DNA of 64,000 nt from Campylobacteraceae bacterium (lineage in GTDB: Bacteria; Campylobacterota; Campylobacteria; Campylobacterales; Sulfurovaceae): NCBI GenBank assembly GCA_027065385.1, contig JAMOOP010000067.1:1-64000 (forward strand). The letters are read 5' to 3'. A program made the position numbers and the translations under genes. The notes under the pieces were generated by a model. It searched no databases. It was given only the letters and a program-made list of their open reading frames with translations, and was not told where the DNA came from. Each line of letters opens with the position of its first letter. Position 1 is the stretch's first letter. Below are positions 34,843 through 61,016 of this stretch, piece by piece.

Positions 34843-36010
34843 TTAATTCCCCTCTTCCACATTATCACTGTCTCCAATATACACCTTTTCATTCACAAAC
34901 TCACCCAAAAATCTATTATTTCTAATAGTCGAGCCACTATTACCCTCCCAGTTATGGTTAATAGCTACTCCCCACTGTGTAAAATCACCTCTACTATTGA
35001 CTATATTATTTTCGATTATCGAGTCAGTTATATGTTGTTCGAGATAAATCCCTGAATCCCATGCTGTATTCCAATCTTCATATAGGGTCTCTCGCTCTCC
35101 TCCTGCTACCATATTGGCATCTATAATATTATTGTTGGCTATATGCAATCTATCAGAGTAGTAGAGATAGATACCACTAAAATCACTGTTTTCAATATAG
35201 TTTCCAGAGATATTGGAATCTGCTAGATTATTAATCTCTATACCATGCAGTCGTGAGTCTGTGATATTGTTATCTTTTATATAAATATTTGTACTTCTGT
35301 GAGAGAGTGGTGTTCGTAAGTTTCCATCTTCGTCATTATGGTCAACCTGTCTTGCTACTTTTATACCTGCTGATTTAGGATTTTTTATAGTGTTATTCTT
35401 GATAGTCACATTATACGATGGCAGTGACAAAAAGATACCTTGTGAGACAGAGTTATTCATAATATTATCAAAACAGCTAACATTTCTATCTAAATAGAGT
35501 GCAATAAGTCCACTATGCAAAATATTACCACTAACCACACCATCTTTTTGCAGACTAAAAGAGAGAACATCATTTCCATTATTATTGGTAAAAATCTCAT
35601 TGTTTATTACCTGATTATGGTGGTCGAGATTGCCATTTTCTATCATCTCTAGTGGGTCACTATCCCCTCCTGCGAAATAGACAGTAAACATATTGTTTGA
35701 GCCATAGAGTATAGAGTCTCTTAGTGTAATATGATGATGTTTTGCTGTTACAAATGTTGTATTGTTGCAGTTTGGATTCTGTTTGAGTGTAATATTTGAT
35801 ACAGTTACATAGTTAGCACCTACATAAAATAGGTCTATACAATCTTTGGAGGTATCAGCTTGGATAATCGTACCCTCTTTTGACTCTCCCCTAAAGGTCA
35901 TGCCATCGGTTTTGAGGTCTAGCTCTTTTGATACGGTGTATGTTCCATTTTTAACAACTATATTACTCTCTCCTGAACTAAGTGCTGATATAATCTCCTC
36001 TACGCTATTG
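34843..36010 (-). other. Segment encoding the C-terminal right-handed parallel beta-helix (PbH1-type) domain
   Basis: Repeated N-N-x-I/F rungs: IYIKDNNITDSRLHGIEINNLADSNISGNYIENSDFSGIYLYYSDRLHIANNNIID. Confidence 0.75.
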
Positions 36011-39000
36011 ATAGTATCAGTACATAGACTTTCCATATTATCAGAGATATTACTACTACCTTGATAGATATTCCACCCTGTCTCACAGAAGCTTTTATAT
36101 CCATCTGCTTTGGTTGTATATTGGGTAGCATCATCTATAGTCAATCTCTTGTCTGCTATCCCCTCTATATTGGATAGACCATAAATATCTATTAGCTCCG
36201 AGTTGTTTTGAATACTAAGTGAACCTGTAATCTTTTTGAGACGAATGATACCATCAAGTTTGGTTATACTACTATCTTCTATAGCAAAATCTCCATCAAC
36301 TTCAAGCAGTGCCTCAAAATCATTTATATCCTTATCACTAACCAAACTACAAGCAATATCTCCACTATATTTACCTAACTCTTCATCATAATTACTATAA
36401 AAAGTCAAAGAGTCAATAGAGCATCTTCTTCCTAATATATCTCTTAGTCTGTTATGGGTTGTTGCTTGATAAATAGTTCCATCACAAACTAGAGAGATAT
36501 TATCATCTATATTTCCACCTACTCCGTAAATATCCCATCTAGCAGAACAGAAGTCACTACTATCTGTTGCTTTTGTGGTGTAACTATGAGTTGTATCAAT
36601 ATATATTTTGTCTCCATCTACTGCAAAGATATTCGAGATACCACTAATATCAGCTAGTGAACTGTTGTGATAGATTTTTAATCTACCTCGTATATTAATG
36701 AGACTGGAGAGAGCATCCAAGTTAGTTATGCTATTACCTGATATATCAAAATCTCCCAATACTTTAGTCAAACTACTCAATCCATCTATATTTTCAATAT
36801 TGCTATTTTGTAGATATAAATATCCCTCAACCTCTACAAGATTAGAAAGACCATCTATATTTGTAAAATCATTATTGTTAAGTGAAAAACTCCCTTTGAC
36901 CTTTTTTATTCGACTAAATAGACTCAACTCATCACTACTCATCCCACTATATGAGCAGTCTAAACTACCATCAAAGACACCTGTAGTTGCATCAAATTTT
37001 TCATCAAATTGTGAGTAAGAGACTGAACACTTCTCTTCCATTAGATTTTTGAATTTTTGGTCATCAGATATATCCTCTCCTGCTCCACACACTAGAGACA
37101 TGTTATCATCTATATCTCCATTGTAAGTTCTTAGATTCCAAGTAGTGCTACAAAATTTTAAATTTTCATTGGCTTTTGTAGTATATTGGTCTAAATCAAT
37201 ATAGAGTGTTTGTCCCTCTGTTCCATTAATATTACTTAATCCTGCTATATTCGTTAGAGTGCTATTTATATAGATATTTATAGACCCATTTACTATTGAT
37301 AGATTTGTTAATCCATTAAGATTTTGTAGTTTATTTCTTGAAAAATCTATACTTCCTGATGAGGTTAAAGAGCTTAATCCATCTATATTTTCTAATTTAT
37401 TAGAATAAAAATAGAGATTCCTCGCTGTTTTTAAACTACTTAATCCATTCAGATTAGTCAGTAAATTATTATTAAGATGAAAACTACTTCCTATTGATTC
37501 AAGAGAATTTAACCCATCTACATTTTCTAATTTATTATTTTGAAGATAAAAAGTATTTGTTACCTTTTTTAGATTGATTAATCCATCTACATTAGTTAAT
37601 TGATTTTGATACAAATAAAAATAACCTTTAACCTCTTTAAGTGCTTTAAAATTTAATAAATTCTCACTTGTTAATCCTCTATTGTAACAATTTAGATTAG
37701 TATTATAAACCCCCGTCTCTTCATCAAAATTGTTATAAAAACTAGATGATGGTACACCACATTTAGTACCCAAAATATCCCTAAACTTATCAACATCAGT
37801 AGGAGTATAGGCTGTATCACTTACACATATTTGTGTCATATCATCAGCTATATTTCCATCTTTGTCTCTTAAATCCCATGTTTGACTACAAAAATTTGAA
37901 TCTTTATCTGCTTTGGTAGTATATTGATTAGCATCTATATATAGATATTTTCCTTTTTTAGCTTTTAGATTTTTGATACCTGATATATCTGTTAATGTAG
38001 GGTTCTTTTGAATATAGAGATAATATCTTGAAATTGTTGTAAGATTACTCAATCCATTTAAATTTGTAAGCTGATTATCTTGTAGATTCAAGCTATATCC
38101 TACAGTTGTAAGACTACTTAGTCCATCTACATTAGTTAATTTATTGATTTGTAGTTCAAGATTACCTTTAATAGTCGTTATATTACGAAGTCCATCAATA
38201 TTTGTAAGTTGATTATGATATAGAGATAGTGAATTATTGATTTGAACCAAAGAGCTTAATCCATCTACATTTTCAAGCTGATTATAGTAGAGATAGAGTC
38301 CACCAACAGTGGTTAATTTACTTAAACCATTAACATTGGTTAGTTTATTATTTTGCAAATATAGACTTGAACCAACAAACTCTAAATTACTAAGTCCATC
38401 TATATTTTCCAATTGATTTTGATAAAGATAAAAATATTTTGTCACTTTTTTAAGATTACTCAATCCATCCACATTAGTTAATTGATTATGATAAAGGTCA
38501 AGGTATCCTCGTACCTCTTTAAGCCCTTTAAAATTGAGCAAATCCTCACTTGTTAGAGCTTTTTCTCGACAAGATATATCTGTATTATATACCCCTGTCT
38601 CTGCATCATAATGGTCATAAAAAGTAGAAGATGAGATACCACACTTATCACCCAATACATTACGCAGTTTATCAGCATCAGAGAGTTCCACTCCCTCCAT
38701 ATCACAAACCTGTGTCATATCATCAGGAATATTTCCATCTTTGTCTCTTAAATCCCAAGTAACCGAACAAAAATCAGAATCTTTTGGTGCTTTTGTTGTG
38801 TATTGGTCTTTATCTATAAAAATAAGTTTACCATTTGTTCCTACTATATTTTGAATACCTGATATATTTTTTAGATTTTCATTATTGTAGATTTTTAAAT
38901 ATCTAAGAGATGTCAAGTTGCTTAATCCATTTAGATTTATTAGTTTATTGTTATAGAGTCTTAAATCATACTTTATAGTTGTTAAGTTGCTAAGACCATT

Positions 39001-42000
39001 AACATTAGTTAAATTGTTATCATAAAGGTCTAAATATCCATTTACTGTTTTAAGATTTGCCAAACCATCAATATTAAGCAGTTGATTTTTATATAAAGAG
39101 AGCGTTCCAACAGATGTCAATGAATTTAAACCATCAATATTTGTTAACTTATTGTATGAGAGATTTAAAGTACCATCTACTGTTGTTAAATTGGACAGAC
39201 CATCAATATTTACAAGTATATTATTAGATAATCCTAAAACCCATCCAATACTTTTTAGATTATATAACCCATCAAGATTTATTAATAGATTATGATGTAA
39301 AGTAAAAGTTGAAGTGACATTACTTAATTTAGATAATCCATTAGTACTATTAATTTCATTATATTCAAGATAAAAATTTCTACCTACTTTTTCTAAATTA
39401 CTTAGTCCATCAAGATTTACAATTTTGTTATATCTTAAATTCAAATCTCCTGTAATCTCTTTTAATACAATAAAACTTTTTAATTTTTCACTATCAAAGT
39501 TACCTTTACTCCAATAAGCATACCCTGAACAATCTATATTACCATTATAAATCCCTGTATCTTCATCAAATCGATTATAAAAAACAGAAGATAATATATT
39601 ACACTTTTCACCCAAAGTATCCCTAAAGTTATCCACATCACTAAGCTTATAATCTTCTCCCATATCACAAATCTGATTCATGTCATCAGCTATATTGGTT
39701 GTAGCATCTCTTAAATCCCATTTAACACTACAAAATTTAGAATCTTTTGGGGCTTTTGTTGTGTATTGATTCCCTCCGTCTATATATAAAAGTTTACCAT
39801 CTATTCCCTCTAAGTTTTGAATTTCTGATATGTCTGTTAAGTTTTCATTATTATAAATTTTTAAATACCTAAGAGAGGTTAGATTACTTAATCCATTGAG
39901 ATTTATTAGTTTATTGTTATAGAGTCTTAAATCATACTTTACAGTTGTTAAGTTGCTAAGACCATTAACATTAGTTAAATTGTTATCATAAAGGTCTAAA
40001 TATCCATTTATTGTTTTAAGATTTGCCAAACCATCAATATTAAGCAGTTGATTTTTATATAAAGAGAGCGTTCCAACAGATGTCAATGAATTTAAACCAT
40101 CAATATTTGTTAACTTATTGTATGAGAGATTTAAAGTACCATCTACTGTTGTTAAATTAGATAACCCATCAATATTTACAAGTTTATTACTAGATAACCC
40201 AAAACCCCCACCAATACTTTTTAAATTATGTAACCCATCAAGATTTATTAATAGATTATGATGTAAAGTAAAAGTTGAAGTGACATTACTTAATTTAGAT
40301 AATCCATTACTACTATTAATTTCATTATATTCAAGATAAAAATTTCTACCTACTTTTTCTAAATTACTTAGTCCATCAAGATTTACAATTTTGTTATATC
40401 TTAAATTCAAATCTCCTGTAATCTCCTTTAATACAATAAAACTTTTTAATTTTTCACTATCAAAGTTACCTTTACTCCAATAAGCATACCCTGAACAATC
40501 TATATTACCACTATATATCCCTGTCTCTTCATTAAAAGCATTATAAAAAGTATTAGATGATATATTACACTTTTCACCCAAAGTATCCCTAAACTTATCC
40601 ACATCACTAAGCTTATAATCTTCATCTACATCACAAATCTGACTCATATCATCAGCTATATTAGTAGTAGCATCTCTTAAATCCCATTTAACACTACAAA
40701 ATTTAGAATCTTTTGGTGCTTTTGTGGTGTACTGATTCCCTCCATCTATATATATAGCTTTCCCATCTGTCCCCTCTACATTTTGAATACCTGATATATC
40801 TATTAGCCTCTCATTTTTAGTAATATTAATATAACTTCCTACATGCGTCAAATTATAAAGTCCATTTAGATGTGTCAACTTATTATTATGCAAATACAGA
40901 TAATTTCCTACACTTGTTAAAGAGCTTAATCCATTAATATTTGTTAAATTATTATTATATAGACTTAAATAACTACCAACTGTTTTTAAATTAATCAACC
41001 CATCCACATTTGTTAATTTATTACTTTGAAGATACAGATAACTGGTTACTTTTTTAAGATTACTTAAACCATTTAGATTAGTAAACTGATTAGAATCAAG
41101 TCTTAAATACCCTTTTACCTCCTTTAAAGCCTTAAAATTCTCCAAGTCACTATCAGTTAATCCCTTATTATAACAAAAGATATTTGTACTATAAACCCCT
41201 GTATCTTTATCAAAATATCTATCGAAATTACTCTCACTAACCCCACACTTATTTTTTAGAACACTTTTTAGATACTCCGAACGGTCTATATCGGTAATCC
41301 CCTCTATACTAATACCACTACTCTCACCTCTATCATTAAATGCTTTTAGTGTAATAGCATACGAGGTCTCTTCTGCTAGATTTAGTATCTCATAGCTTGT
41401 AGCATTTATATCTAAAACAGCTTGTTTGACACCATCTATATAGAGATTAAACCCTCTCTCATTATCAGAGTTATCACTCCAACCTATGGTTAGACGGTTA
41501 TGTCCTATATCTAGTAGTTTTAAACCACTTGGTTTAGCAGGTTTTGTTTTGTCATAGGTAAGTGTGATAGAGAGAGTCACACTATCACTCTCTCCTGCTT
41601 GATTAGTGGCACTCAATGCTAGAGTATAATATTTTCTAGTTGCTTCATCAAATTGTGCAGTTGATGATACTTTTATAATACCATCACTACCTATCTCGAA
41701 GTTTTCAGCCCCATCACCTGTTAGATTGAAACTAACAATCTCACTATCCCCTTTGGTTGCAAATCCAACTGTTCCTATAACTCTACCTGCTGTTGCATTC
41801 TCTTCTATGTACCCTTTGAACTCATAGAGTATAGGCTTTATCTCTGCAATATTTTTAATAGTAATATTGACATCTACTGCTTCACTCTGTGCTTTGTCAT
41901 TGGTTGCTATAGCTTTTAATAGATATTTTTTAGTCGCCTCATAATCAATTACTTTTGTTGTTGTGATATTCCCCTCTATATCTACTCCAAAACTTTCAGC

Positions 42001-45000
42001 TCCTGTTCCTGATAGATTTATGGCTTTAATAGGTGAACTACCTATGCTTTTTATCTCTATCTTGCCAATAGTTGTACCAATAACTACATTTTCAGATATA
42101 GTTAAATTGGTATCTGTAAGTATAGGCTCATCATCTATAATGTTACCAACTGTAATATGCAATGAAGCAGGTAGTGACTGCCCTAAACCATTTCTAGCAT
42201 AAATCTTTAAATTATACTCTTGTTGAGTCTCAAAATCCAATGCCTTTTTGACTTTTATAACTCCATTTTTATCAATCTCAAAATCATCACTCCCCACACC
42301 CTCTATCCATACCTGTTCTACTACTCGTTTTTTACTAACGATTTTGACACTACCAACCAAATCTCCAACAGCCACACTCTCCTCAACACGAAAAGTTTTC
42401 TCCTCAATCTGTGGCACACTGTCAAGACTCTTAACAACAGATATATTCAAATAGACCATATTGCTTTTATTACCACTTTCATCTATAGCAACCAAAGAGA
42501 GGTGATATTTTGCTGTTTGGGTACTATTAAATTGTGCATTGGATGCTACTCTAAGCTCTCCATTGCTTCCAAGTACAAAATTACTATTTCCATCTCCTGT
42601 GAGTTCAAATCCATTAAGAGTATGACCACCAAGAGAGACTATATGAACTATACCAACTAAAGAGTTAGCTTCACTATCATCATAAACTGTACCACTAAAC
42701 CCTTTTATCTTGATACTATCATCCATATCATAGATACGGATATGCACAAGCGAACTACGGCTCTCTCCTGCACTATTGGTAGCATAGGCTCTCAAATCAT
42801 AGGCTGTTCTTTTTTCAAAATCTATATCTGCCCCTGCTTTGACTTTGATTGTTCCATCATTTTCTATAACAAAATTCTCACTACCACTCCCCTCTAGTCT
42901 CATAGATATAATTGGTGTGGCAGTGGAGATAATCGGTATAGCATTTAGTGAAGTCCCCTCTAGTGCATTCTCATCTACATAGGTGTTGAGTTGACCAAGT
43001 AGTGGGCGATTGCTTTTTACATATATAGAGACCCTTTGAGGTTGGCTTGTTCCATGCTCATTGGTGGCAGTGACTACCATATTGAGAGTGCTAAATTGAT
43101 AATCAACTAGATGTTGGGTAGCTGATATAGTTATAATACCTGAACTATCAATCTCAAAATTATCACTACCTACTCCTGTAAGTTGATAGCTCTTTATAGC
43201 ACTCAAGCCTTGATTGGTTACACCCACTTGCACAACAGCATGACCTACACTCGCTTCAAAATCAACCTCTGCTGATGTTGCACTAAGCACAGGAACATCA
43301 AGCTTATTATCCACTACTACATGAATAGATGCTGGTCTGCTTGTACCATTTGCATTGGTAGCAACTACAGAGAATATATAATCTCTCTTGGTCTCATAAT
43401 CCAAAGTAGCATTAGTAGCCAAACTCAATTTACCATCTGTAGTAATATCAAAAATATCATGATACTCTCCAACTACAGTAACACTATCAACAGCTATAGG
43501 AGAAGCTATATCTAGTTGAGTAATCAAACTTCCACCTACCACATCCTCTGCTATGTGAACCTCTTTTGGTGTAATAGACGGTACATCTAACACATCATCT
43601 ATAAATATTGTTATCCGTTGAGGTCTGCTATTGCCACTATCTGATAGTGCTGTAACCTCTATATGTTTGACTCTATACTTCTCAAAATCCAAATCAGCCC
43701 CAGAGGCTACAAATATCTTGCCACTCTCATCAATAGTGAACTCATCTTTGTTAGTACCACCTATAGTATAGCCCGTAATTGCCCCTTTGTTTGAAGCAAA
43801 AACCACTTGCCCCACATACGCACCCACAGTTGCATCTTCGGCTATATGTCCATCTTTGAACTCTGTAAATATCGGACTATCAACAATATCAGAGACAATC
43901 ACCCTAAACTTGACAGGGCGACTCTCTCCACTACTATTTGAAGCTTTGAGCAAAATATCATACTGATTTTGAACCTCATAGTCCAAACTCTCTCCTGCTT
44001 TGAGAGAGACCACACCACTGTTGTCTATCTCAAATATACTATCTTGGGAGACAATCTCATAAGAGCTAATCGCACTACTACCCTCACTAAGTACTTTGAC
44101 CTTACCAAGCTCATAAGCCCCTACGGTATCTTCTGATACCTGAACCCAAGTAGCTCCAAGAATCGGTTTTGGATTGGATGTTGTGCTAGGTTTGGCATAG
44201 ATAAACGACTCTGCATCAGCACTCAAATCCTCTCCTCTATAGGCTTTTTGGATAATAGGTAGTAGTTGGGAAGTGTAATCTTTGACCAACCAATTTCGGT
44301 TGGCACTTGCTAACCAATAGAGTATATCATCTCTACCAAGAGGGTTAGCAGATTTGGGATAGAGTTTCTCTATTAGAACGCTTTTGGCAATCCCATTTAA
44401 TCTATCATCAACTCCATAACGGTCATAGTTCGCTCCCAATAAATCTTTTGAGACCTCAAAAGAGAGTTCGGTCAAGATATTGACCTTGTACTCATCTCTA
44501 AGTAACTCCTCTTTGCTCACAATAGCGTGAATCGTTCCTTTTAGAGGTGTATAGTCACTATCCATCTCAAAATCACTATTGGCATCAATATCAACACCAC
44601 CCATTACCTCCATAATAAAATCACCATCATACCCTGCAATCTTCTGCATAAAAGTTATCTCATCAGCTGTTTGAGCTACTCGCCCCTCTAGCACCACAGG
44701 CAGATAGATAATCCCTGAACTATCTATATCTGTACCTATAGTTGTCTCACCCTCATAGAGATACTCTATCTCTTTTTTACCAAAATCAGAAGCTTTATAG
44801 ATACGATATTTTGCCCCTGCAATAGCTCCACCTAATTGAGCTTGATTTAAAAATGTGAGAACCCTATACTCACAAGGGATACAGCCACAACTTTTAGCAT
44901 TCTCTACACACATCTCTTTTTCGATATTGCGAATCTCATTAATAGTAGTCACACTAGAACCCAAAGAGTTAGGATGATAACTAGACCAACTAGCCCCACC

Positions 45001-48000
45001 ACCACTTACAAACTGATACTCACCACCATATCCACCACTACCCCCTGCTGTTGGCAAAGAGGTTTGAGTAGGCACAGTCTCAACAGTAGCAGGTTTAGTT
45101 GGGTCAGCACGAGAGATAAAAATATCAGCAATATGCCCCAAATTATAATCCTCTTTTGTTTTTATCTCTTTTTTATAGACTCTTGTTCCTGTTGGGGTAT
45201 TGATGGTTACGGTGACTATATCAGGTAGATTACTACTATCTATAGATGCTAGATTGGTTGGGTTTACCTCTATGGCGTAGTGTCCTTGATAGACCTCATC
45301 TAGGGTTAACTCTCCTGAACCGATATTATAAGAGGTACAGCTTTTGCTCTGCTCTTGCATTAGTGGATTGGTTGTTAGAAGTGAAGCTTTTTGGTTTTGC
45401 CATATTGTGGTGATGGTAAAAAGTCCGTTTGGTGGGATTGCACTATTTTGGCACTCTTTTTTATCTATGACATTAACTGTTCTAGTTACATTTGCCTCAT
45501 TACCATCACTATCTTTTACAGAATATTTAACAATGTATGAACCTATTTTTGAAGTATTTAATTCACTGCTATCTATTACAATTTCATTTGTAAGATTTCC
45601 ATCTTCTATATCTAATGCAGTTGCATTTAATTCTTGATATTTACTATTTTTCAATATGGATATATTATTGTCACCAATAAGTGTGATTGTAGGTATTGTT
45701 CCTATACCACTATTGAAATCTATCTTTGTACTATATCCTTTTACTATAGTATCAAAATGAATTATATTATCAGAGTTCAAATTTGATACATAACTATAAG
45801 CTTTTTGTATAGCTTTTGGATTATTTGTATTACTATTTTTTAATTGAGTATGTAAATCTTCAATTATCGTTTCTTCCTCTATTCCTGTATATCTACTAAA
45901 TTCCTCCAAAATAGCATCATACCATGCAATAACTATCGAATTATTATTTTCATCTTTATCGATAAGTTTTCCATCTTTGAAATATCTATTATCTATTGGT
46001 ATCTTATAAATATCTTTTTTTTCTTCTTTTTCCAATGTATAAATAGTTGTATTTAAGTTTATATTTTTTTGGGTATCTCGATAATAGATTACAATATGTA
46101 TATCTCTTTTTCTCTCTGATAATAGTCCTTTTTGTTCCTCATTCAGTTGAAAACATAGATGATATATTCCACTTTTTTTATCAAATTCAAACCATCTTGA
46201 ACCCTCTTTATATTGTTGATTTTCTGTTAAGCCCAAATATGGTATATATTCAGCAGAATCATATATTTTAGTTTTATACCCTTGTGAAACAGGAGATATT
46301 ACAAAAAGTTTATGAGACTCTTTAAAAACTATATCTTGTTTAATCTTACTAGATTCAGGTTGTTTTATATCTATTTCTGATTCAACTTCAAAAATACCTG
46401 CTGATAGATGTGTAATTCCTGTATTATTTTTATAATTCTTCCAATATTGATTTCCATAATCTTGTTTAAATAGTTCACTTAAATTATCCATATAACTAAT
46501 ATAATAATAGCTATCTTCATTTTTATGTTCCCAAAATTCATAAGGGTCAGAAACTATACCTAAATCATCATCAATTCCTAAAGAGGCATCATATTCTTTT
46601 CTTATTGCTTGATTTTTATTTTTATCATATTCTAAATATCTTGAAAAAGTATTATTTGTTTTAAGCGTAGATTCATAAGAGTTTTTTACATGTGTAATAG
46701 GTGATGTAAAAATAGATTTTGTTTTCATTTCATTATCATACTTATACACATGAAATTTAAAATTTGCAAAATCTTCAAATGTTGTACCTAATAAATTAGT
46801 ATGTTTATAAGAAGCATAAATTTCTTTTGTTATATTTTCACCTATCTTGCCATAATTACCTATTTGCATCTCATAACTATAAGTCACACCACTGATTGCT
46901 AGAGTTGCATCACGATTATTGACATTATATGGTATAAATTTACCTTTTGGTGCATTTCCATATAAAAAATAACTCTCATAACTATATCTATTATCAGAAT
47001 AATTGTCATAAATATTTAAACCATCAGGATAAAGTAAGAAAGAGTATTTTAAATAATCGGCTGAAAATGGGAAATTAATTTCATTATATTTTTCAATTGT
47101 AAAAGGAACAACTCTAGGTGCTGTTATAAAATCATAAGCAAATTTACCACCTGTATTTGCTATTTTGGAGAGGTCAATAATGACTCTTGCCAAACCATTA
47201 GCAGGTATTGCATAAGAGGCAATTCTCGCAGAAAACTCTGATAATATATTTGATAAATCATCTGCTGATTCTTTTACTACTTCCAAAATCATATTTTTTG
47301 TATAAGCCATAATCATTTTATTATCAATCTTTTGTACTTGAGTATAAAGTTTATCTATAGAGCTAGAAAGAGATACCATATCTTTAATTTCACTCATATC
47401 TTTTTTGATAATTGAGTAAATTTTCGCACTAGAATTTAAAAATATAATTTTAGATGCATATTTGGCAATTTGTCTATTTTCTTGACTTATTCCATCATGT
47501 TTTAACATAATTCTTGCAAAAATTCTAGCCAATTGAGCTGTTGATTTTTTATGATATTTATCACTATTTCCTACCTCTGCATTAGCGATTATAGAAATTG
47601 CAGATAAAGAGTTTAAATCTTTAGGATAATAAAAATATCCATCTGAAACAATTTTACCTAACAACTGTTTTAACATTATTTCCGTAGCTATTGTTTTAGC
47701 ATACTCTTTACCTTTTCCTTGATTAATTAAATCAGAAAAATCACTTAATGATAGTTTATCTATCTTATAGACCCTAGCAAAAAATGCAGGAAGTGCTTTA
47801 TTTTCTCCTTGTATAATTTTAGAAGGAGCAACTGTAATTGTGTTTAAAAAATCATCTATATCATCAGAGTGTGATAACAACTTTTTTGATATATCTTTTA
47901 CTTTTTTATTGTCAGCTAATGTAGCAAAGATATTAATAACTTCTAATTTATCTCTAGCAATATTATTCCACTCTTTAATACTTTCTTTGGCTTTCTTTAC

Positions 48001-51000
48001 ATTTTCAATTATTTTATCTATTTTTTTACTAAGTTTACCAAAAAGTTTTTTTCCTTTACCACTACTCATAGTATCTAAAACTATACTAAATAATGTTCCT
48101 CCATTCATTAATGCAGGTTTAGAAAACCTATCAAATTCAGTATATAAAACATACTCTTTTTTAGCAGTATCTGTATAATCCAAATCAGCATAAGAAAATT
48201 CTGTTCTACTTTTCATTCCATCTTTAAAAGGATTAATTGCATTTTTTATATCAAAAAAAGCCTCTTGTCTTTGTAACATTTTTGTTTTTTTCAAAAGAAC
48301 TTCTATAGATGCAGTATTAAAATCTTCTCTACTTAGAAGCCCATAGTTAAGACTTCTACTTGTATCTATAATTATTTTAGAATCATCAGAACTAATCTCA
48401 AATCCACCTTTTTTTACTGGTTCTGTTGAGTCTATATCTTTTGGAGTTACTACAATGTTTACTATATCAGTGGCTTTATTTCCCATATTATCAGTTATTT
48501 CTAAAGTAATAATATGTTTACCTATTGAAAAATTATCTTTGGTAAAAGTAGCATTATTACTTAAAACAGTATCCCCCTCTTTCCATATATAAGAGACAAT
48601 GAACAGAGCATTTTTAGCTATGCTATTTGAAGCATCTAATCTAATGGTTTCCCCCTCTTTAACAGTTTGGTCTTCTCCTGCATTAGCTATAAATTTTGTA
48701 ATTTTTTCTAACTCAACATCTTGATTCTGTTCAAATCTATTATCTAAAATAATACCTGTAATATTTTTTTCAAAATAATTTTCTGCTTTAATATTTAATG
48801 TGTATTCTTTTATCTCTTCTGATTTCTTATTGAGTAATGGTATATTAATGATTTGATAATTTCCATAAATATCTGTAGTTGTTGAAGCTAGTATTTTATC
48901 TGTATTGGTTTCAAATATTTTAAGAGTAACATTTGGTATAGCTTCTTTAGATAAAGTATCATTAATTTGTCCTATTAAGCCACCTACTTTAGTTGAAGTT
49001 AACGGAATTAAGTTAACATCTATATTTTTTTTATCAGCTCTAAATAAAACTGTCTTTTCCTGATAACCATTAGACTTTATGTGGAGTTTATAAGAGCTAT
49101 TTTTATTTGTAAAATATAACCGAATTGTACCATCATCTGCAATTGGTGTATATGGATATTTACTTACTTCTTCTTTACTACCTATTTTTTCCAAAGTAAC
49201 CTCTGTATGGTGGTCTAAATGGTCATTTGTATCTTTATCTTTAATTGTTACTAAGACTTCATATACAGGAAATGAAGTATTTTCTATTTTAGCGTTTACT
49301 TCATAATCTGTTTTTTTGTTTTTTAATTTGCAAGTTCCTGATATTTTATAACTTTTATAATTTTGATTATGAAAAAAACTGTATTCAGTAGAACTAGTTT
49401 TTTCATCTTTTGACTCCCATGTTTTTCCATCAATTGTGTGTTCTATTTTAAAATGGCTTGATTGCAATTTGAAACTACTGGATACCATAAAATCCAATTT
49501 AATATTTGATAAAAATGGATTTGGTAAAGTATGATTAATATAAATAAGATTCCCATCAATAATATCTTGTGCTAATTTCAAAGCATTACCTGCATTTAAT
49601 ATAGGAATTGGATGTTTTAATTTAACTAAAGTTTTTTTCCCATATATTACAACATATCTCTCTTTTACATACTCTGTTGCACTATTAATTAATATTGATT
49701 TAACTTCTTTAGCTGTAAAATTTGGATTTAATGAAAATATTAAAGAGGCAACTCCTGTAACCACTGGTGCTGATGCTGAAGTTCCATCAAATCCTTTTCT
49801 ATCTCCTAAACCATATTCTCGAAAATTAGTTGAGTAATAAGTATTTTCACCTTTTGTACTTTTGAACTCTGTAGGAGCAACAATATCTACAGTTTCACCA
49901 TAATCACTATAATCGGTAAGTTTTTTTAAAGTAAATTTTTCATTAAGTGTTATTGCTCCTACAATTATTACATTATCTAATTTATTAAGATTTTTATTTT
50001 CATCTAAATGTAAAGAACCATTTTGAGTTTTAGCATCTCTTCCATCATTACCAGTTGCCCAAATATGAAGAATATTATTATATACTTCTGCTGTCTTTCT
50101 ATATGTTCTAGTTTGTTCAAATCCTACTTCTTCACTCCCTAAAGTATCTCCATTCCAAATATAATGATTATCCATACATCCCCACGAATTATTTACTAAT
50201 TTTATAGATGAATCACTTTCTAATAGTTGTGTATATTTAATTGGTGTATCTATAGAACAATCACTAGTTCTTGAATTATCAAATTTGATACTTTCTGGCT
50301 CAAATTGGGAAATAACATTAACTATTAATTTAGAATTCCAATTTATACCTAATACTCCATCTTTTTTCTTTGGATTTCCAACTAATGTACCACAAACCCC
50401 TGTACCATGTGTTGATTTTTTTTCAGAAAAAAGGTTTTTTTTGAATTTATTTTCCAAATCTTGATGTTGATAAAAACCCTCATCAATTACACCAATAGTT
50501 ATATCTTTATTCCCCGTGGTATATTCCCAAGCTTTTTTTATATCTATCGATTCTAAATGCCAATTATCTCCACCATCATTAAATTTAGAAGTATAATTAG
50601 GTGGTATGGTATATGAAAAAATCTTTTTTATTTTGTTTCCAGCATAAGCTCTTTTATCTACAGAAGCAATACCTTTTATAAATTTTAATAATTCAATAGA
50701 TTTTTTATCATCTGTTTCAATTAATAAGCCATTAATAGTATTCCACCCTTTAATACTAAAACTTGAATATTTTGAAACTATATTTCTTATCTCATTTTCA
50801 GACAAAGAACGAGAATATACCCAATATTGATTTTTAATTACTCCTTGTAAAGTTTCAATATCTTTGCTTCCATCATTCCCTTCAATCTGTTTTTCATCAA
50901 ATGTAAAAATTTCATATATAGTAAATTTTTCTACTCTTTTTTTATTCTTTTCATTTATAACTTGAAGAGTATATTTTCCTTTAATAGTTGGAGTTAAATT

Positions 51001-52050
51001 AATTGTTTTATTATTATTGATTGAATTTAATATTAAATTGCTACCATGAGGTTGAGAGATTATAGACCAAGTTAACTTAGAAGAGTAATCTGTAGATAAG
51101 CCCTCTATTGAAATATTAAACTCCTGATTTAAAGTTGGAGAGTTAGAATAAACAATTGTAGCATCTGATAAACTAAAAGAATTATTTGTTGGTGGATTAT
51201 TTCCACTCCCTCCACCATTTCCACCAAAACCACTACTACTCCCACTATTATTTTCACCCACAAAAATTGAATTATTAATCCTCTCAATAGGATTTTTATC
51301 ATTTTTAATACTATCCAAAAAATCAATAGCTATTGATACACTATTTGAACTATCTGTAATATTAGTTAGGATTTTAATGGAAGCCAAATAAGCGGGGTCA
51401 TTTTCAGGAAAATCATTATTAACTACATTAGTTTTAGTACCCAAAAGTGTTATAAACTTTAATGCAACCTCTACTTTATTACTAATATAATCTTGTCGTT
51501 TTTGTGCAATAGATAACTCTTGGGTTGTAAGATTGGGAAAATTTTCTGACGATAGTTCAATAGTTAGAGAAGTTTCCATAAAATCTGATACCATATCTGA
51601 ACGACTATTACCACTATCTAAATATTTTGTCCAATGCTTGATTCCATCCGTGTCTCCTGCTTTACCTAAAGAATTTTTATAGATAGCCTCTACAAACTCT
51701 TTGTTGGTCATATTACTATATGTCGATATAAAAGTTGGGTGTTTTACAAAATTAGATGAAATTTCTTTTAAAACTATAGAGAGACTCTTACTACCATGTA
51801 AAGCTCTATTTTTCCAAAAATTTAGACCATCTATATCTGGAGCTCTATTAAAATAAGCAATATAAAGTCCTGATATTTTTTCTTCTAATTTAAGATTTCT
51901 TTTGTTATATTCACAAATAGCTATATTTTGCTTTTCTAAATTTAAATTTGAAGAAATATTTTTTTCTACAGAAAAAGCATAAGAATTTAAACTAAAAATA
52001 TAAAACCCAACTAAAATAATAAAGCGTAAAATTGATAGATTTAATTTTAT
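34843..52050 (-). CDS. Giant secreted/surface multidomain protein (~5735 aa with extended N-terminus): signal peptide - DUF4214 - S8 subtilase - CarboxypepD_reg/PKD - helical region - Ig/HYR - 9 cadherin-like - Fn3 - 7 capped LRR cassettes - right-handed beta-helix
   Basis: ORF track gives 34843..51711; the same frame is open to 52059. Subtilase: IGVIDEGFYQ (Asp), HGTGVCGTLVG (His), ATGND (Asn), GTSASAPVVTGVASL (Ser). Other domains recognised by repeat pattern. Confidence 0.85.
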   Translation of the reverse strand: MKLNLSILRFIILVGFYIFSLNSYAFSVEKNISSNLNLEKQNIAICEYNKRNLKLEEKISGLYIAYFNRAPDIDGLNFWKNRALHGSKSLSIVLKEISSNFVKHPTFISTYSNMTNKEFVEAIYKNSLGKAGDTDGIKHWTKYLDSGNSRSDMVSDFMETSLTIELSSENFPNLTTQELSIAQKRQDYISNKVEVALKFITLLGTKTNVVNNDFPENDPAYLASIKILTNITDSSNSVSIAIDFLDSIKNDKNPIERINNSIFVGENNSGSSSGFGGNGGGSGNNPPTNNSFSLSDATIVYSNSPTLNQEFNISIEGLSTDYSSKLTWSIISQPHGSNLILNSINNNKTINLTPTIKGKYTLQVINEKNKKRVEKFTIYEIFTFDEKQIEGNDGSKDIETLQGVIKNQYWVYSRSLSENEIRNIVSKYSSFSIKGWNTINGLLIETDDKKSIELLKFIKGIASVDKRAYAGNKIKKIFSYTIPPNYTSKFNDGGDNWHLESIDIKKAWEYTTGNKDITIGVIDEGFYQHQDLENKFKKNLFSEKKSTHGTGVCGTLVGNPKKKDGVLGINWNSKLIVNVISQFEPESIKFDNSRTSDCSIDTPIKYTQLLESDSSIKLVNNSWGCMDNHYIWNGDTLGSEEVGFEQTRTYRKTAEVYNNILHIWATGNDGRDAKTQNGSLHLDENKNLNKLDNVIIVGAITLNEKFTLKKLTDYSDYGETVDIVAPTEFKSTKGENTYYSTNFREYGLGDRKGFDGTSASAPVVTGVASLIFSLNPNFTAKEVKSILINSATEYVKERYVVIYGKKTLVKLKHPIPILNAGNALKLAQDIIDGNLIYINHTLPNPFLSNIKLDFMVSSSFKLQSSHFKIEHTIDGKTWESKDEKTSSTEYSFFHNQNYKSYKISGTCKLKNKKTDYEVNAKIENTSFPVYEVLVTIKDKDTNDHLDHHTEVTLEKIGSKEEVSKYPYTPIADDGTIRLYFTNKNSSYKLHIKSNGYQEKTVLFRADKKNIDVNLIPLTSTKVGGLIGQINDTLSKEAIPNVTLKIFETNTDKILASTTTDIYGNYQIINIPLLNKKSEEIKEYTLNIKAENYFEKNITGIILDNRFEQNQDVELEKITKFIANAGEDQTVKEGETIRLDASNSIAKNALFIVSYIWKEGDTVLSNNATFTKDNFSIGKHIITLEITDNMGNKATDIVNIVVTPKDIDSTEPVKKGGFEISSDDSKIIIDTSRSLNYGLLSREDFNTASIEVLLKKTKMLQRQEAFFDIKNAINPFKDGMKSRTEFSYADLDYTDTAKKEYVLYTEFDRFSKPALMNGGTLFSIVLDTMSSGKGKKLFGKLSKKIDKIIENVKKAKESIKEWNNIARDKLEVINIFATLADNKKVKDISKKLLSHSDDIDDFLNTITVAPSKIIQGENKALPAFFARVYKIDKLSLSDFSDLINQGKGKEYAKTIATEIMLKQLLGKIVSDGYFYYPKDLNSLSAISIIANAEVGNSDKYHKKSTAQLARIFARIMLKHDGISQENRQIAKYASKIIFLNSSAKIYSIIKKDMSEIKDMVSLSSSIDKLYTQVQKIDNKMIMAYTKNMILEVVKESADDLSNILSEFSARIASYAIPANGLARVIIDLSKIANTGGKFAYDFITAPRVVPFTIEKYNEINFPFSADYLKYSFLLYPDGLNIYDNYSDNRYSYESYFLYGNAPKGKFIPYNVNNRDATLAISGVTYSYEMQIGNYGKIGENITKEIYASYKHTNLLGTTFEDFANFKFHVYKYDNEMKTKSIFTSPITHVKNSYESTLKTNNTFSRYLEYDKNKNQAIRKEYDASLGIDDDLGIVSDPYEFWEHKNEDSYYYISYMDNLSELFKQDYGNQYWKNYKNNTGITHLSAGIFEVESEIDIKQPESSKIKQDIVFKESHKLFVISPVSQGYKTKIYDSAEYIPYLGLTENQQYKEGSRWFEFDKKSGIYHLCFQLNEEQKGLLSERKRDIHIVIYYRDTQKNINLNTTIYTLEKEEKKDIYKIPIDNRYFKDGKLIDKDENNNSIVIAWYDAILEEFSRYTGIEEETIIEDLHTQLKNSNTNNPKAIQKAYSYVSNLNSDNIIHFDTIVKGYSTKIDFNSGIGTIPTITLIGDNNISILKNSKYQELNATALDIEDGNLTNEIVIDSSELNTSKIGSYIVKYSVKDSDGNEANVTRTVNVIDKKECQNSAIPPNGLFTITTIWQNQKASLLTTNPLMQEQSKSCTSYNIGSGELTLDEVYQGHYAIEVNPTNLASIDSSNLPDIVTVTINTPTGTRVYKKEIKTKEDYNLGHIADIFISRADPTKPATVETVPTQTSLPTAGGSGGYGGEYQFVSGGGASWSSYHPNSLGSSVTTINEIRNIEKEMCVENAKSCGCIPCEYRVLTFLNQAQLGGAIAGAKYRIYKASDFGKKEIEYLYEGETTIGTDIDSSGIIYLPVVLEGRVAQTADEITFMQKIAGYDGDFIMEVMGGVDIDANSDFEMDSDYTPLKGTIHAIVSKEELLRDEYKVNILTELSFEVSKDLLGANYDRYGVDDRLNGIAKSVLIEKLYPKSANPLGRDDILYWLASANRNWLVKDYTSQLLPIIQKAYRGEDLSADAESFIYAKPSTTSNPKPILGATWVQVSEDTVGAYELGKVKVLSEGSSAISSYEIVSQDSIFEIDNSGVVSLKAGESLDYEVQNQYDILLKASNSSGESRPVKFRVIVSDIVDSPIFTEFKDGHIAEDATVGAYVGQVVFASNKGAITGYTIGGTNKDEFTIDESGKIFVASGADLDFEKYRVKHIEVTALSDSGNSRPQRITIFIDDVLDVPSITPKEVHIAEDVVGGSLITQLDIASPIAVDSVTVVGEYHDIFDITTDGKLSLATNATLDYETKRDYIFSVVATNANGTSRPASIHVVVDNKLDVPVLSATSAEVDFEASVGHAVVQVGVTNQGLSAIKSYQLTGVGSDNFEIDSSGIITISATQHLVDYQFSTLNMVVTATNEHGTSQPQRVSIYVKSNRPLLGQLNTYVDENALEGTSLNAIPIISTATPIISMRLEGSGSENFVIENDGTIKVKAGADIDFEKRTAYDLRAYATNSAGESRSSLVHIRIYDMDDSIKIKGFSGTVYDDSEANSLVGIVHIVSLGGHTLNGFELTGDGNSNFVLGSNGELRVASNAQFNSTQTAKYHLSLVAIDESGNKSNMVYLNISVVKSLDSVPQIEEKTFRVEESVAVGDLVGSVKIVSKKRVVEQVWIEGVGSDDFEIDKNGVIKVKKALDFETQQEYNLKIYARNGLGQSLPASLHITVGNIIDDEPILTDTNLTISENVVIGTTIGKIEIKSIGSSPIKAINLSGTGAESFGVDIEGNITTTKVIDYEATKKYLLKAIATNDKAQSEAVDVNITIKNIAEIKPILYEFKGYIEENATAGRVIGTVGFATKGDSEIVSFNLTGDGAENFEIGSDGIIKVSSTAQFDEATRKYYTLALSATNQAGESDSVTLSITLTYDKTKPAKPSGLKLLDIGHNRLTIGWSDNSDNERGFNLYIDGVKQAVLDINATSYEILNLAEETSYAITLKAFNDRGESSGISIEGITDIDRSEYLKSVLKNKCGVSESNFDRYFDKDTGVYSTNIFCYNKGLTDSDLENFKALKEVKGYLRLDSNQFTNLNGLSNLKKVTSYLYLQSNKLTNVDGLINLKTVGSYLSLYNNNLTNINGLSSLTSVGNYLYLHNNKLTHLNGLYNLTHVGSYINITKNERLIDISGIQNVEGTDGKAIYIDGGNQYTTKAPKDSKFCSVKWDLRDATTNIADDMSQICDVDEDYKLSDVDKFRDTLGEKCNISSNTFYNAFNEETGIYSGNIDCSGYAYWSKGNFDSEKLKSFIVLKEITGDLNLRYNKIVNLDGLSNLEKVGRNFYLEYNEINSSNGLSKLSNVTSTFTLHHNLLINLDGLHNLKSIGGGFGLSSNKLVNIDGLSNLTTVDGTLNLSYNKLTNIDGLNSLTSVGTLSLYKNQLLNIDGLANLKTINGYLDLYDNNLTNVNGLSNLTTVKYDLRLYNNKLINLNGLSNLTSLRYLKIYNNENLTDISEIQNLEGIDGKLLYIDGGNQYTTKAPKDSKFCSVKWDLRDATTNIADDMNQICDMGEDYKLSDVDNFRDTLGEKCNILSSVFYNRFDEDTGIYNGNIDCSGYAYWSKGNFDSEKLKSFIVLKEITGDLNLRYNKIVNLDGLSNLEKVGRNFYLEYNEINSTNGLSKLSNVTSTFTLHHNLLINLDGLYNLKSIGWVLGLSNNILVNIDGLSNLTTVDGTLNLSYNKLTNIDGLNSLTSVGTLSLYKNQLLNIDGLANLKTVNGYLDLYDNNLTNVNGLSNLTTIKYDLRLYNNKLINLNGLSNLTSLRYLKIYNNENLKNISGIQNIVGTNGKLIFIDKDQYTTKAPKDSDFCSVTWDLRDKDGNIPDDMTQVCDMEGVELSDADKLRNVLGDKCGISSSTFYDHYDAETGVYNTDISCREKALTSEDLLNFKGLKEVRGYLDLYHNQLTNVDGLSNLKKVTKYFYLYQNQLENIDGLSNLEFVGSSLYLQNNKLTNVNGLSKLTTVGGLYLYYNQLENVDGLSSLVQINNSLSLYHNQLTNIDGLRNITTIKGNLELQINKLTNVDGLSSLTTVGYSLNLQDNQLTNLNGLSNLTTISRYYLYIQKNPTLTDISGIKNLKAKKGKYLYIDANQYTTKADKDSNFCSQTWDLRDKDGNIADDMTQICVSDTAYTPTDVDKFRDILGTKCGVPSSSFYNNFDEETGVYNTNLNCYNRGLTSENLLNFKALKEVKGYFYLYQNQLTNVDGLINLKKVTNTFYLQNNKLENVDGLNSLESIGSSFHLNNNLLTNLNGLSSLKTARNLYFYSNKLENIDGLSSLTSSGSIDFSRNKLQNLNGLTNLSIVNGSINIYINSTLTNIAGLSNINGTEGQTLYIDLDQYTTKANENLKFCSTTWNLRTYNGDIDDNMSLVCGAGEDISDDQKFKNLMEEKCSVSYSQFDEKFDATTGVFDGSLDCSYSGMSSDELSLFSRIKKVKGSFSLNNNDFTNIDGLSNLVEVEGYLYLQNSNIENIDGLSSLTKVLGDFDISGNSITNLDALSSLINIRGRLKIYHNSSLADISGISNIFAVDGDKIYIDTTHSYTTKATDSSDFCSARWDIYGVGGNIDDNISLVCDGTIYQATTHNRLRDILGRRCSIDSLTFYSNYDEELGKYSGDIACSLVSDKDINDFEALLEVDGDFAIEDSSITKLDGIIRLKKITGSLSIQNNSELIDIYGLSNIEGIADKRLTIDDATQYTTKADGYKSFCETGWNIYQGSSNISDNMESLCTDTINSVEEIISALSSGESNIVVKNGTYTVSKELDLKTDGMTFRGESKEGTIIQADTSKDCIDLFYVGANYVTVSNITLKQNPNCNNTTFVTAKHHHITLRDSILYGSNNMFTVYFAGGDSDPLEMIENGNLDHHNQVINNEIFTNNNGNDVLSFSLQKDGVVSGNILHSGLIALYLDRNVSCFDNIMNNSVSQGIFLSLPSYNVTIKNNTIKNPKSAGIKVARQVDHNDEDGNLRTPLSHRSTNIYIKDNNITDSRLHGIEINNLADSNISGNYIENSDFSGIYLYYSDRLHIANNNIIDANMVAGGERETLYEDWNTAWDSGIYLEQHITDSIIENNIVNSRGDFTQWGVAINHNWEGNSGSTIRNNRFLGEFVNEKVYIGDSDNVEEGN
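36015..41290 (-). repeat. Segment encoding seven tandem LRR cassettes with Cys-containing caps at both ends
   Basis: Each cassette: N-cap (e.g. KCGVSESNFDRYFDKDTGVYSTNIFC), n x ~22-aa LRR (LxLxxNxLxNxxGLsnLt), C-cap (e.g. YTTKAPKDSKFCSVKWDLRDATTNIADDMSQIC). Confidence 0.85.
38690..40620 (-). repeat. Recent in-frame tandem duplication, period 966 bp (322 codons)
   Basis: Anchors 39481/40447 and 39061/40027 are offset by exactly 966; at least 131 bp identical (39061-39191 vs 40027-40157). Confidence 0.85.
41560..44165 (-). repeat. Segment encoding nine ~95-aa cadherin-like repeats
   Basis: Recurrent pattern V/I-x-E-D/N-x-x-x-G...FxID-x-xGxI-x-V...LDFE...Y-L-x-x-x-A-T-N-x-x-G-x-S-R-P...D-x-x-D-x-P. 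Confidence 0.75.
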
Positions 52051-52055
52051 ATTAT

Positions 52056-52081
52056 CCCCCTAATATAAATATATTATATCA
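52056..52081 (-). promoter_or_regulatory. Extended -10 promoter (TGATATAAT) and RBS (AGGGGG) for the giant gene
   Basis: Minus strand ...TGATATAATATATTTATATTAGGGGGATAATATAAAATTA; -10 at 52073-52081, G-run 5 nt before codon 52050-52048. Confidence 0.55.
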
Positions 52082-52149
52082 AAACATAACTATATTTTAA
52101 GTTACTATTACAAATTACTTATATTTTTTAAGGGATATTAAAAAAATTA

Positions 52150-53475
52150 TTATTGCACACCTATCTGATAATACTTAAATCCAATTTTTTCTAAACTATC
52201 TCTATTGTACTGATTTCTTCCATCAAAAATTATAGAATTTTTAAGTCTTTTTGCCATCTCTTCAAAATCGGGAGAGCGAAACTCTTTCCACTCTGTAAGT
52301 AAGATTAAAGCATCAGCTCCATTTAGAGCTGTATATTTACTATCTACATACTCTACACTGCTATTACCCTTTAGATAGAAATTTTCAGCCTCATCTCTTG
52401 CCTTTGGGTCGTAGGCTTTAACTTTAGCTCCTCTTTTAGTTAACTCATTGATTACTACTATAGAACTAGCCTCTCTCATATCATCTGTTTCAGGTTTAAA
52501 TGCTAATCCCCAAATTCCAAAAACTTTACCCTCTAAATTCTCACCAAACTCTTTAATTACTTTATCCGAAATAACTCTTTTTTGTGCAAAGTTTACCTCT
52601 TCTACTGCATCTAATAGTTTTGGAATATATCCATAATCTTTAGAGGTTTTAGCTAATGCTTGAACATCTTTTGGGAAACATGAACCACCATATCCACACC
52701 CAGGGTAGATAAATGAGTAACCAATTCTACTATCACTTCCAATTCCATGACGCACTTGATTTACATCAGCTCCAACTCTTTCACAGATATTTGCTATCTC
52801 ATTCATAAATGATATTTTAGTGGCTAACATTGCATTGGCTGTATATTTTGTCATTTCAGCCGAACGAACATCCATAGCTATAAATCTATCATGACTTCTT
52901 GTAAATGGAGCATATAACTCTCTCATAATATCAACTGCCTCACTACTATTAGCACCAATTACAACTCTATCAGGCTTCATAAAGTCATTTATAGCATCAC
53001 CCTCTTTTAAAAATTCAGGGTTTGATATAACATCAAAAGTTAAATCACTTCCTCTTTTATCTAGTTCATTTTGAATAGTCTCTCTTACTTTATCGGCAGT
53101 TCCAACGGGTACTGTACTCTTATCAACTACAAAAGTGTGATGCTTCATATTCTCTCCAATAGATTTAGCTACTGCTAAAACATACTGTAAATCTGCACTC
53201 CCATCTTCTCCCATTGGAGTACCGACTGCTATAAAACAGATATTAGAGTTATCTAGTGCCTCTATTATATTGGTGGTAAAATTAAGAGTTCCTTTTTTAT
53301 AATTTTCTAATACCATCTTTTCTAATCTTGGCTCATATATTGGAACAACTCCCTTTTTTAAAGAGTCAACTTTTTTTTCATCTATATCAACACATATAAC
53401 ACTATTTCCCATCTCTGCAAAACATGTTCCACTCACTAATCCTACATAACCTGTACCTATTACGCTTATTTTCAC
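52150..53475 (-). CDS. ugd: UDP-glucose 6-dehydrogenase
   Basis: [30 protein letters not shown]...[18 protein letters not shown]. Confidence 0.95.
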
Positions 53476-54671
53476 CTATATACTCCACAAAAATCAATTA
53501 CTTTCTTACTATTATCTATTTTAATATCTTCAAACTCTCTATGAGCTACTAAAAAAATAATAATATCAGCCTCTTTAATAGCTTTATCGTATTTTACTAT
53601 ATTAAACTCATTAAATGATTTAATATTAGGTTCAACTGCTAAAATATTTAAACCACTTTCAATAAGCTCTCGTGTTACATATAGTGCTGGAGACTCTCTT
53701 AAATCATCAATATTAGGCTTAAAAGCTAAACCCATACATGCAATTTTTACTTCTTTTCCACTCTCTTTTTCAAAAACTAAAGCCTTATTTTTAATTTTTT
53801 CTATAACCCATTGTGTCTTATATAGGTTTACCTCTCTAGCTCTTTTTATAATCTTAGCATCACCCTCTCCTGCATGGACAATAAACCAAGGGTCAACAGC
53901 AATACAGTGTCCCCCCACCCCTGCACTAGGTTTTAATATATTAACTCTTGGGTGTCTATTAGTTAGTGATATAAGTTCCCAAACATCAATATTAAATTTG
54001 TCACATAAAATAGATAATTCATTAGCAAAAGCAATATTTACATCTCTAAAAGAGTTCTCTGTAAGTTTTGCCATTTCAGCAGTTTTAGCATTAGTTGATA
54101 GAACTTCACCTTTTACAAATGTTTTATAAAACTCTACTGTTTTTTCTGTAGCTTTAGGAGTTAAACCACCAACTATTCTATCATTTTCAACTAACTCTCT
54201 CATAATTTGACCAGGTAATACTCTCTCTGGACAGTGGGCAATATATATTTTAGTTGTATCAACTCCCTCTTCTTTTAAGATATTTTCTATTTTATTAGTT
54301 GTTCCAACTGGTGAAGTTGACTCTAATATTACAATATTTCCATTTTTTAAATATGGAGCTATAGCCCTTGTAGCATCTAAAACAAAATCTATATTGGGAA
54401 TAAATCCTTTATAAAAAGGTGTTGGAACTGCTATAATAAATATATCAGCCTCAATAGGCTTAATATCTGCTACTAAATACCCACTATTAACTGCTGACCT
54501 AACAAAAGTGTCTAAAACAGGTTCAACAATATGTATCTCTCCACGATTAATTGTATCTACTGTAGATTTAACTACATCTACTCCATGAATTTGATAACCT
54601 CTATTGGCAAGTAGTGATGCTGTAGGTAGTCCAATATATCCCAATCCCATTACACATATTTTTTTTTTCAT
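53472..54671 (-). CDS. wecC: Nucleotide-sugar dehydrogenase (UDP-N-acetyl-D-mannosamine dehydrogenase type)
   Basis: [29 protein letters not shown]...[15 protein letters not shown]...RESPALYV. Confidence 0.85.
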
Positions 54672-54711
54672 TATTAAAACTTCTTATTTATTTTTATTTT
54701 ATTATGTGAAA

Positions 54712-55962: not shown

Positions 55963-55965
55963 CTT

Positions 55966-57021
55966 TTATTCTTTTATTTTAAATTTTTCAAGCTCTTTTT
56001 CAAAACTTTTTAAATATCTATCGATATTATTTTTGGTTAATACTATTCCAAAATCATTTGGAATATTGATATTTTTTCTATTAGAAATTTTATTAGCAAG
56101 GAGTTTTCCAATATATGGATAGAAGTGGTCATCATCAGGATAATTTTGTAGATTTTTAGTAATACTATTAATTGTCATAAAGTGATAAACCTCTCCAAAT
56201 ATATTAACCATATCTTTTAACCAACTCTTAAAATCCTCTAATCTATCTCCTTTTTTTATCATAGAGACTAATAGATTGGCACTAATGGGTGAAGTAAAAA
56301 TTATAAATTTTGTATTTGGGTTACTCTTTTTTAATCGTTTTAATATTCCTATATAATCTGGATTTTTCTGATAGTTCTCTAATAAAAAACTATCAATATG
56401 TATCTTTAGATGTTTTTTATAAGCTCTTATTCTCTCATTTTCTGATACTCTAGGTCTAAATTTAATATTATTTCTACTGTAGTATATAGGAGATTTTTTA
56501 GATATATTAGCCTCTATATTTTCAATAGATTTTTTTAAAGTATCTAATGAGAATAACATTATATATCTATATAAAAATCTCTTTGTATTAGATATATAGT
56601 GGTCTGGATTTTTAAATTTAATATCTTTTGGCTTTTTTGTATTATAAAAATCTGCTCCAATAATAATGTATTTAAAGTCTCCTCCATGTGACTCTTTAGC
56701 AAACTCTATATATCTCTCATACTCAAATGGATATATACTATCTAAGGCATAGTTATAAATATTCATATTATAAAAATCATTTTGATTAATAAAGGTTGTT
56801 CTACTACTTCCAATAAGAAGCCCATCATATCTTCTTAATCCACTAAAATAGACCATATTACTCTTCTGCTGTCTCTCATTAAAAGGGAATTGGAACTGAT
56901 TTAAACTATTTTTATGGGAAAAGCTCCAATGTGGGTCTATAATATAATTTATAACTCCTATAATAGATACAAATAGAAATAAAAAAGCTATATATACTAC
57001 AATCCATTTTTTAGCACTCAT
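55966..57021 (-). CDS. Membrane-anchored SGNH-like protein (AlgJ/AlgX-type partner of MBOAT)
   Basis: N-terminal TM; GLLIGSSRTTFINQ (GxS block) and YPDDDHFYPYIGKLLA (DxxH block). Confidence 0.65.
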   Translation of the reverse strand: MSAKKWIVVYIAFLFLFVSIIGVINYIIDPHWSFSHKNSLNQFQFPFNERQQKSNMVYFSGLRRYDGLLIGSSRTTFINQNDFYNMNIYNYALDSIYPFEYERYIEFAKESHGGDFKYIIIGADFYNTKKPKDIKFKNPDHYISNTKRFLYRYIMLFSLDTLKKSIENIEANISKKSPIYYSRNNIKFRPRVSENERIRAYKKHLKIHIDSFLLENYQKNPDYIGILKRLKKSNPNTKFIIFTSPISANLLVSMIKKGDRLEDFKSWLKDMVNIFGEVYHFMTINSITKNLQNYPDDDHFYPYIGKLLANKISNRKNINIPNDFGIVLTKNNIDRYLKSFEKELEKFKIKE

Positions 57022-57030
57022 AAATATCTC

Positions 57031-61002: not shown

Positions 61003-61016
61003 AATCTTTCCAATAC

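Follow-up and report, generated by a model that had tools for sequence, protein, structure and literature searches.

A 5,735-codon Campylobacteraceae gene fuses a DUF4214-headed subtilase, a predicted cadherin–Fn3–capped-LRR adhesin and a beta-helix

We found that a single minus-strand gene of 17.2 kb, located in the 64,000-nucleotide stretch of a Campylobacteraceae contig analysed here (the window), is a fusion of three pieces that also exist separately: a DUF4214-headed subtilase, a cadherin–Fn3–capped-LRR adhesin and a beta-helix. Most of its parts are already known, their combination is new, and as a whole it is unique in the sampled genomes; the full domain combination recurred in none of them, no curated family scanned matched it, and a literature search returned no paper describing the architecture, in line with the preliminary description, which had not recognised the combination as a described adhesin family. 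The product is best read as an adhesin of the cell surface that carries its own, probably self-cleaving, protease. That such an adhesin, built from the three fused pieces, is exported, anchored and cleaved in the manner proposed below is, in our judgement, fairly probable. Domain calls were made by a Pfam scan, NCBIfam models were also scanned, and residues are numbered from the ATA at 52050. The features are as follows.

52150..63994, minus strand: polysaccharide gene cluster with two UDP-sugar dehydrogenases, glycosyltransferases, an MBOAT acyltransferase and a heparinase-like protein
52073..52100, minus strand: promoter-like site, TTAAAA-16-TATAAT with TG before the -10 (10 of 12 match)
52048..52061, minus strand: Shine-Dalgarno-like AGGGGG (52061-52056) and probable ATA start (52050-52048), from the sequence
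51970..52050, minus strand: Sec-type signal peptide of ~27 aa (MKLNLSILRFIILVGFYIFSLNSYAFS), read by inspection
51253..51918, minus strand: tandem DUF4214 head, aa 45-266 (Pfam 8e-17, alignments, AF2 model, fold matches)
50623..50868, minus strand: prodomain-like region, ~aa 395-476, directly before the protease domain (conserved in the S8 alignment; putative prodomain by position)
49666..50508, minus strand: Peptidase S8 domain, aa 515-795 (Pfam PF00082 2.1e-34, motifs, alignment)
48739..48975, minus strand: CarboxypepD_reg-like domain (under the Pfam cut-off here; found in S8 homologues)
48448..48690, minus strand: PKD domain, aa 1121-1201 (Pfam PKD_4 4e-8)
45688..48447, minus strand: ~920-aa stretch, aa 1202-2121, without domain match or relatives (Pfam, genome search)
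45469..45687, minus strand: Bact_surface_Ig-like domain, aa 2122-2194, ending at the GC3 step (Pfam 1.4e-19)
44158..45462, minus strand: conserved pre-cadherin domain, ~aa 2197-2631 (~430 aa), no Pfam name (homologue comparison)
41536..44157, minus strand: nine cadherin-like repeats, aa 2632-3505 (Pfam Cadherin 2.1e-51)
41320..41535, minus strand: Fn3 domain, aa 3506-3577 (Pfam fn3 3.2e-11)
36010..41268, minus strand: seven LRR cassettes (Pfam Recep_L/LRR_4 down to 2e-30, cap motifs, tandem DNA repeats)
34846..36009, minus strand: C-terminal right-handed beta-helix, aa 5348-5735 (Pfam Beta_helix 4.4e-10)

The preliminary description had given a single ~5.7-kaa gene at 34843-52050 with this domain order, and both the open frame and Pfam agree. 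Its PKD/Ig-type modules, Fn3 and C-terminal beta-helix were all matched by Pfam. It did not contain the strand, the signal peptide, the two DUF4214 units, the CarboxypepD_reg domain, the ~920-aa stretch, the pre-cadherin domain, the likely ATA start or the three-part fusion. Starting at the ATA, the frame runs for 5,735 codons with no internal stop; starting at the first ATG (51711), it would give 5,622 aa. A product begun at 51711 would lack a hydrophobic leader and the greater part of the first DUF4214 unit, both of which are encoded between that ATG and the stop upstream of it. Sequence inspection found no in-frame ATG, GTG or TTG in the interval from this stop to the signal peptide. ATA (AUA) is the likely, though unusual, start codon; the natural reading is either that AUA serves as a rare start or that a base error in the metagenome-assembled genome (MAG) has changed an ATG. 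A paralogue with the same DUF4214 head (L014) likewise begins with a hydrophobic leader. The promoter-like site is of a kind whose chance expectation is not low, with a mean of 2.8 sites per shuffle.

Nine cadherin-like repeats had been counted before; nine units are indeed seen by eye, of which Pfam scores seven stretches. Similarly, the seven LRR cassettes reported earlier are borne out by motifs for seven N-caps and as many C-caps, while the LRRs themselves number 33 with a strict pattern and 41 with a loose one, near the ~43 first given. Every cassette has exactly four cysteines, two in each cap (28 in total), and the protein's remaining 15 cysteines are scattered. DNA repeat analysis showed that two cassettes spaced 966 bp apart are 91% identical over 300 nt, from which we infer that the array is still evolving by tandem duplication. 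The cassettes get smaller toward the C-terminus. Homologues of the ~920-aa stretch were found in none of 397 genomes of the phylum; its first half looks helical by eye.

The S8 catalytic triad, described earlier as intact, is present as the Asp, His and Ser motifs at D523, H548 and S758, whose columns are invariant in an alignment of the giant protein with three other Campylobacterota S8 proteins. The same four proteins share a conserved region where a subtilase prodomain is expected. Because this prodomain-like region is present, autocatalytic self-processing by the subtilase, one of the two roles suggested earlier, is still a reasonable inference. Relatives of the module are separate proteins of ~1,200-1,320 aa without head, adhesin or helix. 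Among them, the secreted proteases L020, L021 and L023 resemble the giant protein in the prodomain-like region, the invariant triad and 33-38% identity, and L020 and L021 also share CarboxypepD_reg with it; they differ in having no DUF4214 head, no adhesin and C-terminal domains of their own (MAM-like, Lcl_C). Among the S8 matches listed in a census of 398 genomes from the order, no other frame exceeded 1,752 aa. The first 1,113 aa of the giant protein, used as a single-sequence query against the genome contigs, found no relative.

A near-complete tandem DUF4214 head was seen on 14 proteins: the giant protein and two others from its own genome, further Campylobacterota proteins, and some encoded by MAGs of Thiotrichaceae and Desulfobulbaceae. 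Besides the S8 domain of the giant protein, the passengers are M10/serralysin-like domains with RTX (n=2), trypsin-like domains (n=2), HExxH proteins without a Pfam name (n=3), CAP (n=2), TSP3-repeat (n=2) and unclassified proteins (n=2). Thus 8/14 are peptidase-like, by a peptidase domain or an HExxH motif; since several of the 14 are orthologues, independent events are fewer than this count. In the genome of the giant protein and in G125, the DUF4214–M10 version adjoins an O-antigen-type ABC exporter and a DUF4214-methyltransferase; the order exporter, DUF4214–M10/RTX protease, DUF4214-bearing methyltransferase is common to L015:7187-11938 (G000:C154) and L017:1205-6689. The full head occurs on peptidases and HExxH proteins of several unrelated types (S8, M10, S1, HExxH), a distribution expected of a display module. 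This favours a different use of the protease, namely that it trims surface partners or prey proteins, not itself, with the LRR–cadherin part as a targeting device. We take this possibility seriously while leaning away from it: the pattern is compatible with autocleavage as well.

The AF2 model of the head (pLDDT 90, pTM 0.87) points to a candidate anchor. VIA-align placed the LPS-bound domain of RsaA first, with a Z of 7.6-7.7 over 138 residues at 3.3-3.6 A and the next at 4.2, a range (Z <13) that can arise by chance for helical folds. Foldseek of the model against the PDB gave no significant match (6t72, E 0.88, prob 0.08), and its ranking was topped by phycobilisome linkers at a best, non-significant E of 0.05. 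PDB sequence searches with the head alone or with profiles A1/A4 returned chance-level matches, those of the profiles without RsaA. The DUF4214 Pfam model had no match in the Caulobacter control genome, and DUF4214 was named in only four papers of the literature searched. The resemblance of the head to the LPS-binding domain of RsaA is therefore best regarded as suggestive. The N-terminus of Campylobacter fetus SapA is reported to bind LPS (attributed to Dworkin, 1995) and may be DUF4214-like in appearance.

More speculatively, tandem DUF4214 may be a mobile surface-polysaccharide-binding module with the RsaA-anchor fold that several Gram-negative groups have put on unrelated exported proteases; here it would tether an adhesin whose own protease cuts the tether, making the adhesin self-releasing. 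We put this forward tentatively, as a rather doubtful proposal in its full form. The giant gene points to a testable role for DUF4214, a domain named for its 'unknown function', in displaying exported proteases at the surface; should the head bind LPS or EPS, a location and a purpose would follow for many Campylobacterota DUF4214 proteins. A chain that is both anchored and autocleaved is awkward when the head stands before the prodomain. This order also fits a protein with no anchor at all, a type II secreted protease-adhesin that is freely released and whose DUF4214 units are a folding or secretion aid lost with the prodomain, as do the headless S8 relatives and the lack of a lipobox, barrel, LPXTG or C-terminal sorting domain. 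However, in L078 and L079 the head sits C-terminal to the trypsin domains, a position unfit for a cleaved-leader-only role, and its fold resembles an LPS anchor; we consider free release without an anchor rather unlikely.

The fusion is visible in both homology and composition. Piece A (aa 1-2194) comprises the signal peptide, tandem DUF4214, the prodomain-like region with the subtilase, and the stretch without relatives. Piece B (aa 2194-5347) is a cadherin–Fn3–capped-LRR adhesin collinear with a stand-alone protein of a congener (G091:C76, L052), which aligned to aa 2167-3755 at 43.8% identity over 1,602 columns, beginning near the junction. In that protein, which is interrupted by a run of N in its assembly, PKD domains take the place of the head, protease and unmatched stretch, and the LRR array stops at the same final cap, beyond which the giant protein continues. 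With collinear pre-cadherin, cadherin, Fn3 and capped-LRR parts, the giant protein belongs among the G091-type adhesins. Relatives of the pre-cadherin domain occur in ~12 genomes of the family. Five of these relatives (L055, L056, L058, L059 and L060) have an N-terminal HSQG motif like the nucleophile elbow of serine hydrolases; judged by this motif, other giant adhesin-like proteins may have enzyme heads too (L055 had no Pfam match).

A change-point scan of third-position GC (GC3) located the dominant step at codon 2194, where GC3 rises from 0.12 to 0.27, with a log-likelihood gain of 61 against a maximum of 7.6 in 100 shuffles. This codon is the last residue of the Ig-like domain, that is, the Ig/pre-cadherin boundary. 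A second, weaker step near codon 5282 (log-likelihood gain 17) is close to the beta-helix junction. Because the same block in G091 is likewise GC3-richer than its front end, the step marks a block boundary and is not itself proof of recent transfer; it may be due to the block's own composition. Piece C (aa 5348-5735), the beta-helix, is known from other, non-adhesin-like proteins of congeners: in two of them (G097/G121), exported proteins that are otherwise unrelated and contain no adhesin have a domain with which it shares 55-56% identity. Single-sequence modelling gave a poor structure for it (pLDDT 46), and the Foldseek list for this model, headed by mannuronan C5-epimerase AlgE4 and also holding PL6 lyases and tailspikes, makes a polysaccharide-type beta-helix possible. 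One 1,864-aa exported congener protein (L147:2184-7775) joins the same beta-helix to an unclassified N-terminal part of ~1,000 aa; by eye this part seemed heparinase-like, an assignment unsupported by Pfam, the PDB or comparison with the heparinase-like protein of the window.

The source genome is a MAG of 175 contigs with 5.8% contamination. That the assembler joined two or three genes in frame, from different organisms or metagenome loci, is improbable: the contamination, the sharp composition change at aa 2194 and the near-identical cassettes (966-bp spacing, 91%), which are assembly hazards, would favour such an artefact, but 5,735 codons run through the two junctions without a stop, the alignment of the Ig-like/pre-cadherin part with G091 continues unbroken over the junction (query 915-1431), DNA repeat analysis lists no long repeat at the junctions, and the junctions coincide with domain boundaries. 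A single gene shows an existing adhesin that gained a protease at its front and a beta-helix at its tail, the junctions being readable in homology and composition.

Export and anchoring had been called unclear. The export route is not wholly so, because there are a Sec-type leader by inspection, a genome-encoded type II secretion system (T2SS) and paired cysteines in the LRR caps; the DUF4214 head is a candidate anchor. Contig C102 carries T2SS genes, with GspD at 381.6 bits (cut-off 351.4) and GspG at 147.7 (cut-off 88.9); the GspE and GspC models match under their cut-offs in the same genome. An exosortase/archaeosortase-family protein (L089:5149-5664, G000:C102; TIGR04178 over its cut-off) adjoins these genes. 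Export is probably via Sec and type II secretion, judging from the encoded components, and Cys-capped LRRs would fit periplasmic folding prior to type II export. The systems whose absence was noted earlier were not found here either: neither Pfam nor NCBIfam gave an autotransporter (type V) barrel or a type IX sorting domain at the C-terminus, which is a beta-helix, the Pfam scan gave no RTX/hemolysin-type calcium repeats, and LPXTG was absent from the giant protein. It has no lipobox. The exopolysaccharide locus said to lie alongside is confirmed by its sugar-nucleotide dehydrogenases, glycosyltransferases and MBOAT; on the contig this same-strand cluster extends past the window, and the giant gene comes after it.

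In the working that we propose, Sec would take the chain into the periplasm, where disulfides would staple the seven LRR cassettes before the type II system moved it outside. The DUF4214 head would then grip the cell's own surface glycan, either LPS O-antigen or the polysaccharide of the neighbouring locus, while the cadherin repeats would extend the chain, possibly with calcium by analogy, and the LRRs and beta-helix would bind a target. The subtilase would cut itself after the prodomain and subsequently act on proteins nearby. With the head lying ahead of the prodomain, maturation of the canonical kind would part the anchor from the adhesin; a cut at the usual place would detach the head, and activation would be a release step too. 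Release upon activation would be an attractive corollary of the domain order.

Comparison with known systems sets the protein apart in several respects. Internalins are alike in LRR profile, although the InlA model scored 155 bits, far under its curated cut-off of 1600, and they differ from the giant protein with its disulfide-capped cassettes and Gram-negative host. LapA/RTX adhesins are likewise giant, repetitive surface adhesins, but the giant protein carries a putative signal peptide and many cysteines and is devoid of RTX repeats, and with a leader present it falls outside their type I class. Phycobilisome linker domains (pfam00427), first for the head in Foldseek, are separated from it by low TM-scores and a cytoplasmic photosynthetic function. 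The N-terminal LPS-binding domain of Caulobacter RsaA (PDB 6T72/6Z7P; PMC6978808), which VIA-align ranks closest in fold to the head, uses calcium in binding O-antigen (PMC6978808, PMC8828063). RsaA leaves the cell by type I secretion (PMC8828063) and builds an S-layer, whereas the giant protein has a putative signal peptide, and the two domains have no detectable sequence similarity. The G091 adhesin (L052), while it has a PKD front end and is without DUF4214, protease and beta-helix, shares with the giant protein a signal-peptide-like leader and an identical order of parts, from the pre-cadherin domain through cadherins and Fn3 to the capped LRRs.
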